A model generated the notes under the pieces. That model was not told where the DNA came from. It saw nothing but the letters and a program-made list of their open reading frames with translations, and did no database searches. The position numbers and the translations under genes are program-made. Of a DNA stretch of 64,000 bases, positions 34,476 through 61,637 are shown in pieces (within the stretch, counting starts at the first letter, position 1; each line of letters begins with the position of its first letter). Source of the DNA: Lasiodiplodia sp. COLG20 (taxonomy: Eukaryota > Ascomycota > Dothideomycetes > Botryosphaeriales > Botryosphaeriaceae); contig VNWV01000007.1 in the NCBI GenBank assembly GCA_009801085.1, positions 1,550,001-1,614,000 of the forward strand, in the 5' to 3' direction.

Positions 34476-34679
34476 GCGGGAGTGGCCTAGGTATGTTGAC
34501 ACACAATTCCCACTGTCTTCGTTCTGCGAGAATATTCAAACGCTAATCATCACCCGCTACAGTGGTTAAGGCGCTGCTTTCCCAAAGCAGAAATCGCGAG
34601 GTAAGATGGAGAAAGGAGAGCCACCCATGCACAACAGCAGACTGACTAATTGCAAATAGTTCGAACCTTGCCTTCCGCA
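34476..34679 (+). tRNA. tRNA-Gly(CCC) interrupted by two GT-AG introns
   Basis: Three segments, 34476-34490, 34563-34600 and 34660-34679, join to a 73-nt cloverleaf. Acceptor stem GCGGGAG pairs with CTTCCGC (one G:U). The D-stem is GCC/GGC with A14, G15, G18G19; the anticodon stem CTGCT/AGCAG holds loop TTCCCAA (anticodon CCC at 34581-34583). The variable loop is AAATC, T-stem GCGAG/CTTGC, T-loop TTCGAAC, discriminator A. G1:C72, C2:G71, G3:C70 and A73 fit glycine identity. Intron 1 (34491-34562, 72 nt) starts GTATGT and ends CTACAG; intron 2 (34601-34659, 59 nt) starts GTAAGA and ends AATAG. Both have a CTAAT branch-like site. They lie after positions 15 and 53, not 37/38. It could be functional or a decayed copy, but every paired position is kept. 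Confidence 0.8.
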
Positions 34680-34690
34680 TGATACAAGTC

Positions 34691-34701
34691 TTTTTTTTTT
34701 T
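34691..34701 (+). terminator. Pol III-type T-run after the split tRNA
   Basis: Eleven consecutive T residues start 12 nt after the tRNA discriminator base. This is the form and spacing of an RNA polymerase III terminator. Confidence 0.7.
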
Positions 34702-35109: not shown

Positions 35110-35895
35110 TTATGGTAAGTAAACCGTTAAACGAATCTCCAACAGCAACACCAGCAGCAGCAGCGGTATCAGCGGTAGCAGCAGCAGCAGCAGTAGCGGT
35201 GGCACCAGCGGCAGCAGTAGCGGTAGCAGCAGCGGTAGCATCAGCGGTAGCAGCAGCGGTGGCAGCAGCGGTAGCAGCGGTAGCAGCAGCAATAGCGGCG
35301 GTAGCAGCAGCAATAGCAGCGGTAGCAGCAGCAGCGTCATTAGAAGCAGCATCGGAAGCAGCATCAGAAGTAGCATCAAAAGCAGCATCGAAAGCAGCAT
35401 CAGAAGCAGCGAGCGGGTCCGTAGGACTGGCATGGCGGGTTGAGGAGCTGTACGCAGAACGAGAGGGTCTTCTCCGCGAAGCGCTTGGGGATGGTTCCAT
35501 CGACAGATATGACGAATCCAGTCCCTCTGACGAATCAAGTAGCGGTGGACCCAGTTGACGATAATCGGGAAATAATAGAAGAAAGCACCGTATAACTGGT
35601 TCAGGAGAGTTTTGAGCAGTTGAGAAAATCGTAGTGTAAGATCATAAAGCCCGTCGCAGTAACCCCGAATATGCCGGCGTAACGAGTTCGGCAGAACGAC
35701 CTGGTTTCCATACAACCGAGCAAAGAAAAGTGTGACCCATGTCAGAACCACGATGTAGCGGTAGAGTAGAAAAAACTTGGCTACTAGTTGAAACAGACTG
35801 AGACCATCCTGGGCCAAAAGCGTGTATGCGCTCTCTCGATCACACTGCCCAGTAAAGGATTGGCCATTAAGGAGTCCAGTGGAGCAGGCTCTCAT
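35110..35895 (-). CDS. doubtful ORF, membrane-like, ending in a triplet repeat
   Basis: A 261-codon open frame from the ATG at 35895, which overlaps the SEC11 stop by four bases (ATGA). Its first ~150 residues look protein-like and hydrophobic in places ([40 protein letters not shown]) but match no family I know. The last ~100 residues are Leu-rich and come entirely from the triplet repeat at 35142-35410, which is open in several frames on both strands. It may be a real lineage-specific gene, a 3' exon of a neighbour or chance. Confidence 0.3.
35142..35410. repeat. imperfect trinucleotide/minisatellite repeat
   Basis: About 270 bp built from AGC/GCA/GGT triplets in variable order, such as GGTAGCAGCAGCGGTGGCAG. 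It reads as Ala- or Ser/Gly-rich on the + strand and Leu- or Ala-rich on the - strand, with no stops in several frames. Confidence 0.85.
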
Positions 35896-61565: not shown

Positions 61566-61637
61566 GCGTCGATGGTCTAATGGTTATGATTCAACCTTCC
61601 CAAGGTTGAGAACCGGGTTCGATTCCCGGTCGTCGCA
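61566..61637 (+). tRNA. tRNA-Gly(CCC), uninterrupted
   Basis: A 72-nt cloverleaf without intron. Anticodon stem CAACC/GGTTG with loop TTCCCAA gives anticodon CCC at 61599-61601. T-arm CCGGG-TTCGATT-CCCGG; A-box-like TGGTCTAATGG and B-box GGTTCGATTCC are intact. Discriminator A73. The acceptor stem GCGTCGA/TCGTCGC has a T4:T69 mismatch at the fourth pair; all other pairs are Watson-Crick. It decodes GGG. A second, sequence-divergent tRNA-Gly(CCC) is split by introns at 34476-34679. Confidence 0.93.

Follow-up and report, generated by a model that had tools for sequence, protein, structure and literature searches.

Candidate spliceosomal introns in a tRNA-Gly(CCC) gene and in other tRNA genes of the fungus Lasiodiplodia sp. 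COLG20

To our knowledge, the textbook view is that the mRNA-splicing machinery does not splice tRNA. A locus in Lasiodiplodia sp. COLG20, at positions 34476-34679 of the forward strand of the 64,000-nucleotide stretch of DNA that was analyzed (the window), raises the question whether this also applies to this fungus. When two segments with GT-AG ends, 34491-34562 and 34601-34659, are taken out, the joined 73-mer is a tRNA-Gly(CCC). A search of the open PMC literature turned up no description of tRNA genes with spliceosomal introns.

The locus consists of alternating exons and introns of 15, 72, 38, 59, and 20 nt, all on the + strand. Exon 1 (34476..34490) encodes tRNA nt 1-15, comprising the 5' strands of the acceptor and D stems and the start of the D loop. 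Intron 1 (34491..34562, 72 nt, GTATGT...CAG) lies between tRNA nt 15/16 and is followed by exon 2 (34563..34600), which runs from the D loop to the 5' strand of the T stem and includes the anticodon CCC. Intron 2 (34601..34659, 59 nt, GTAAGA...TAG) separates tRNA nt 53/54, and exon 3 (34660..34679) contributes the T loop, the 3' strands of the T stem and acceptor stem, and A73. In the joined molecule all stem positions pair (21/21; 19 Watson-Crick and 2 G-U), the conserved T8, A14, G15, GG, TTCGAAC loop, and A73 are present, and ARAGORN assigned a score of 118.8 and the label tRNA-Gly(ccc). Coordinates and cloverleaf of the original prediction were thereby borne out. The unspliced locus gave no gene with ARAGORN and no Rfam match at the gathering threshold.

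A CTAAT branch-like site, predicted 12-22 nt before the end of each intron, was indeed found in both, slightly nearer to the 3' end than this range suggests: in intron 1 (34543..34547) the presumptive branch A lies 16 nt from the intron end, and in intron 2 an overlapping CTGAC and CTAAT (34642..34650) place it at 14 or 10 nt. The claimed likeness to mRNA introns of the window could be compared with 13 candidate coding introns, a weak check since the rule that selected them itself requires GTRNG and CTRAY. Intron 1 interrupts the A box of the putative Pol III promoter after 8 nt (TGGCCTAG, 34483..34490; score 11.3, intact-gene median 10.3) and displaces its remainder. The B box (AGTTCGAACCT, 34658..34668) straddles the 3' end of intron 2, where the AG of the intron and exon 3 together restore it. 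This B box scores 14.0, and the weakest of 90 intact genes scores 8.8. A terminator-like run of 11 T follows at 34691..34701.

Within the reach of the genome searches the split Gly(CCC) gene is a single copy, without a relative for comparison, and it is the sole gene with two GT-AG introns among the 14 split genes described below. A second tRNA-Gly(CCC), intact and different in sequence, lies at 61566..61637 (+ strand) and accounts for the only match to Rfam in the window. A repeat search, performed for the Gly locus alone, showed that 34300-34760 matches only itself in the genome; an introner-type repeated intron was rejected for this gene on the ground that the locus has no copies elsewhere. 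Shortly downstream, at 35140-35290, the window contains an imperfect CAG/GGTAGC trinucleotide-type repeat. The product of a neighboring gene is a ChAPs protein, which among the best 120 of 2718 matches shares 94% identity with a protein of Diplodia seriata, a genus of Botryosphaeriaceae (Dothideomycetes), and approximately 85% with Phyllosticta proteins.

GT and AG might be common enough for two choices of intron to leave a tRNA by chance, and two free choices do allow many combinations. All GT-AG segments of 40-130 nt in the window were therefore removed, singly and as neighboring pairs on both strands, and the products were analyzed with ARAGORN. The 882,125 products yielded 19 tRNA matches, all of which represented either the split Gly gene, the one new gene found, or the intact tRNA at 61566; no other new tRNA appeared among them. 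Twelve dinucleotide-shuffled windows (4,684,774 products) gave 17 matches, the best of which scored 105.9 versus 118.8 for the Gly gene; the ten matches listed of these 17 span 83-99 nt. In a splice-and-test scan of the genomic loci, a complete tRNA was recovered at 14/15 real loci versus 0/900 shuffled loci. An origin by coincidence is vanishingly improbable on these figures, and the Gly(CCC) find is not a chance result.

The genome searched comprises 43.5 Mb in 88 contigs. Loci for a census of split tRNA genes were taken from searches with B-box plus T-run patterns, one of which gave 189 matches that entered the census in part, and from an Rfam tRNA search. The patterns require a contiguous GTTCRANYC and a T-run, and thus under-sample genes with a different T loop, with a split B box, or without a T-run; the absence of GT-AG introns from acceptor and anticodon arms may partly reflect these requirements. 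The Rfam search, with 63 of 1009 candidates scored, missed many intron-bearing genes that the B-box patterns caught. Without removal of GT-AG introns, ARAGORN resolved 90 nuclear tRNA genes in the examined loci and the window. Among these, 68 were flagged with an anticodon-loop intron or were longer than 86 nt; anticodon labels given by ARAGORN to intron-bearing genes are not all correct. Upon removal of GT-AG introns 14 further complete genes emerged, corresponding, in this partial census, to 14/104 resolved genes being split.

Besides the Gly gene, 13 complete genes are interrupted by a single GT-AG intron that lies outside the anticodon arm: four initiator tRNA (iMet) genes (contigs C4, C12, C45, and C67), two Trp genes (C23, C88), two Pro genes [Pro(TGG) on C1, Pro(CGG) on C23], two Arg(TCT) genes (C1, C34), and three Ala genes [two Ala(TGC) on C1, one Ala(AGC) on C45]. 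A fifteenth locus (L168, C78) has an Ala(AGC) 3' half with the same T-loop intron as the Ala(AGC) gene L167, and no complete gene was found in its 341 nt by the splice-and-test scan. Numbered on the joined sequences, the introns of the split genes occupy nine sites: 9/10, 10/11, 11/12, 13/14, 15/16, 24/25, 53/54, 55/56, and 57/58. ARAGORN additionally flagged an anticodon-loop intron in eight split genes [the Trp, Pro, and Ala genes and Arg(C1)]. The examined loci L114, L119, L126, L134, L150, L153, L162, L171, L172, and L177 gave no resolved tRNA.

Two further observations were made during the census. L120, L124, L128, L135, L137, L142, and similar places share a repeated tRNA-like gene, GAGCCGA...TCGGCTCA. 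Its intron measures approximately 44 nt, and its anticodon was read by ARAGORN as Lys or Arg. Three tRNA-like 3' ends (L170, L171, and L172) lie inside 3 kb (C12:3364900-3368150), and a long insert is present in at least one of them (in L170, ARAGORN reports a 77-nt intron). Among other Pol III RNAs, a single U6 match exceeded the cut-off in the genome search; it is full length and has no intron. The 35 5S matches were all reported over the whole model and show no introns either. Introns throughout Pol III RNAs were thereby ruled out.

The case for function is strongest for iMet; for the Gly gene it is an argument from anatomy. When the whole genome was searched for the iMet core, allowing up to three mismatches, four places were returned, all of them exact; a gene further diverged in the core would escape this search. 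All four genes are cut between nt 24/25 by introns of 54-59 nt. Apart from a shared GTAAGC, a CTAAC whose A lies 12 nt before the end, and YAG, these introns have diverged. The exons are of two types. Their six differences fall on the paired positions of three base pairs, and each of these pairs still forms in both types. Two of these pairs are in the acceptor stem and span the intron [6-66 (C-G to A-T) and 7-65 (G-C to A-T)] and one is in the T stem [49-63 (A-T to G-C)]. Such compensated changes are, as read from the sequences, a trace of selection on the joined product. A T-run follows each of the four genes, which were found by a search that did not require one. In the genome search with Rfam (63 of 1009 candidates scored), a 22-bit piece of one of the four was all that was reported. 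The introns at L155 and L157, which belong to one exon type, have their first 21 nt in common and then diverge, a pattern that suggests duplication of an iMet gene after intron gain.

In other families, junctions were fixed by comparison with relatives. The Trp genes L173 and L174 have a GT-AG intron within ..GGTAGCG^CGTCAG.. (nt 24/25) that is absent from the Trp gene L178. Compared with L178, the joined sequence of L173 is identical at 36/36 of the first and 28/32 of the last nt, and that of L174 at 34/36 and 27/32, respectively. The ARAGORN labels Arg(cct) and Gly(ccc) for the split Trp genes, which result from the extra anticodon-loop intron, were set aside because L178, labeled Trp(cca), agrees with the joined sequences. 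Pro(TGG) and Pro(CGG) are both split at ..GTGG^TCTAG.., where Pro(AGG) (L179) is uninterrupted; a genome search for the split Pro family (up to three mismatches) returned only these two places. At GGGTTCG^ATTCCC, the Ala(AGC) loci L167 and L168 have an intron, whereas L038, L042, and L169 are uninterrupted. The two Ala(TGC) genes have introns at 9/10 and 55/56, respectively, each without that of the other, and the two Arg(TCT) genes are also interrupted at different sites (11/12 versus 13/14). L032, proposed by its ARAGORN label as an intron-free Ala(TGC) relative, was dropped, as its anticodon loop reads Thr(TGT).

The Ala loci showed additional features. At the Ala(AGC) loci L042, L167, L168, and L169, each gene is followed within approximately 40 nt by a second 3' half resembling a T arm plus acceptor strand (e.g., CTGGTTCAATTCCGGTATTATACC), and these extra 3' halves have no visible 5' half. 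In the Ala(TGC) gene L151 (C1:657900-658600), the T-loop intron starts with GTAAGTTCGATCC, which resembles TTCGATCC of the exon, as though a local duplication had given rise to the intron.

All 15 introns begin with GTRNG and end with YAG, although for nine of them the scan itself required GTR and AG. Their lengths range from 52 to 72 nt. CTRAY occurs near the end in 14/15, a count that is partly built in, and whose P value is inflated, because nine introns came from the scan that required a branch-like motif; the remaining intron has TTAAC. Across the introns, the presumptive branch A lies 10-16 nt from the end. Among the introns found without requiring the motif (two Gly and four iMet, the latter four homologous), CTRAY was present in 6/6, versus 18% of shuffled introns. 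Ends and branch motif agree with those of U2-type spliceosomal introns, for which a 5' site near GTRAGT, GT-AG ends, and a CTRAY close to the 3' end are characteristic. Other intron classes were considered. Group I and group II introns have a catalytic core and normally exceed 200 nt. The introns found here are only 52-72 nt long and Rfam matched nothing in the window except the tRNA at 61566, which argues against self-splicing. Nor do the introns fit the tRNA endonuclease class in position or strict structure: none of them is at 37/38, and a strict bulge-helix-bulge at the exact junctions (four central pairs) was found for 0/15, the best having 3/4 pairs.

Consequences of the introns for the Pol III promoter elements differ between families. 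Three Ala genes have a B box that is cut at 55/56 or 57/58, and in each of them (3/3) the sequence that best matches a B box is located inside the intron. These intronic sequences (GTTCGATCC, GTTCGAATC, and GTTCGAATC) score 8.9, 9.3, and 12.5, versus 8.8 for the weakest of the 90 intact genes, and were equaled or exceeded by 15, 11, and 6 of 5000 shuffled introns, respectively. Since two of the three genes are homologous, they represent two independent cases rather than three. Alternatively, an intronic B-box-like sequence could have been left behind when the intron was gained through local duplication. In the Pro and Arg genes the intron disrupts the A box, and no good replacement is present (best scores 1.6 to 4.7 versus an intact minimum of 5.5). 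The B boxes of iMet and Trp are whole but score 2.9 and 7.3, below the intact minimum. These disrupted or weak boxes count against easy transcription.

Three other accounts of the split genes were weighed against removal by the spliceosome. The tRNA splicing endonuclease might remove introns at unusual positions via bulge-helix-bulge structures, with GT-AG ends being incidental. A precedent for the positions is provided by the red alga Cyanidioschyzon merolae, in which nuclear tRNA genes have introns in D and T loops like those of COLG20 (PMC3978253). Moreover, the flagged anticodon-loop introns imply that this enzyme would act on transcripts of eight split genes anyway. However, the C. merolae introns are tied to bulge-helix-bulge processing (PMC3978253), whereas in COLG20 the motif in its strict form, the form that was scored, is absent and spliceosomal signals are present. 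GT-AG ends and CTRAY would serve no role for the endonuclease, and what the iMet introns have kept is GTAAGC, CTAAC, and YAG rather than a structure. Removal by the endonuclease is accordingly considered highly improbable. Alternatively, Pol II might make longer transcripts that undergo normal Pol II splicing and are then trimmed to tRNA. Spliceosomal removal is indeed usual for Pol II RNA, and the broken A boxes of the Pro and Arg genes would fit this scheme. Against it stand the T-runs after 4/4 iMet genes, the B boxes that are kept or replaced inside introns, and the absence of five consecutive T from all introns (0/15), and a Pol II origin is therefore judged very unlikely.

A third account concerns the Gly gene by itself, which could be a recent casualty of two introns and unused even if the other split genes work. 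Its single copy, the interrupted A box, and the intact Gly(CCC) in the window are compatible with such a fate. A dead gene should decay, however, and here the 21 pairs, conserved bases, splice signals, B box, and T-run are all intact, while other genes with introns of this kind look maintained. Loss of function of the Gly gene is unlikely on this balance. The original prediction had named a gene killed by double intron gain as its alternative: the genome-wide evidence favors maturation, and the single copy and intact isoacceptor leave room for that alternative. Given the intact isoacceptor at 61566, the Gly gene may not be needed or may be dead.

The sequences directly establish the anatomy of the introns and their exact junctions, the retention of splice signals, the compensated pairs in the exons, and the presence or absence of introns among relatives. 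Together these findings favor, with a probability of roughly 0.87, the interpretation that the Gly segment represents a tRNA gene interrupted by two ordinary spliceosomal introns with GT-AG ends and a CTRAY branch, and one of a set in this fungus. The spliceosome-matured tRNA precursor of the original prediction gained support from the 13 other complete genes, the interruption of 4/4 iMet genes, the compensated exon changes, and the intron-free relatives. The mRNA-splicing machinery thus probably also has to splice tRNA in Lasiodiplodia sp. COLG20. That Pol III transcribes the genes, that the spliceosome removes the introns, and that the product functions is deduced from sequence. In the proposed sequence of events, Pol III would transcribe a split gene from its internal A and B boxes to the T-run, after which the spliceosome would take out the GT-AG introns. 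An anticodon-loop intron, where present, would be removed by tRNA splicing endonuclease and ligase, and the joined RNA would be processed as a normal tRNA. Two splicing systems would then act on one transcript in the Trp, Pro, Arg(C1), and Ala genes. A more far-reaching proposal, which is considered likely, is that the spliceosome constitutes a second, obligatory tRNA-splicing pathway in this lineage, through which all iMet supply would pass, with some pre-tRNAs also needing the endonuclease and with B-box-cutting introns having brought or evolved a replacement B box.

The split tRNA genes can be compared with several known systems. Canonical eukaryotic tRNA introns at 37/38 occur in the same gene class, and several of the split genes have one too, but the GT-AG introns differ from them in where they lie, in their ends, and in the branch motif. 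Fungal rRNA genes, too, are known to contain spliceosomal introns, and one study reportedly described an mRNA intron in fungal 18S rDNA; as here, an mRNA-type intron interrupts a gene for a translation RNA, but those genes encode Pol I rRNA rather than tRNA. An mRNA-type intron in a Pol III RNA is found in fission yeast, whose U6 snRNA has a spliceosomal intron (PMC10484740); COLG20 differs in that tRNA is affected and its best U6 match is full length. Fungal U3 snoRNA is a further structured RNA gene with ordinary spliceosomal introns, gained in many fungi; they concern one RNA and mostly one region, whereas in COLG20 several tRNA families and nine sites are involved (PMC5832005).

GT-AG introns in tRNA genes would extend the occurrence of spliceosomal introns in structured RNA genes and, for tRNA biology, would be a new splicing route. 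They open several questions to experiment: by what route a Pol III transcript gets to the spliceosome, how a new gene class acquires introns, and whether a B box can act from within an intron. Standard tRNA searches would miss essential genes, since ARAGORN and Rfam were blank at the unspliced Gly locus and Rfam retained no more than the 22-bit iMet piece. If the proposed pathway operates, tRNA supply would respond to splicing factors and, because every iMet gene found is split, the fungus would rely on a spliceosomal step to initiate translation.
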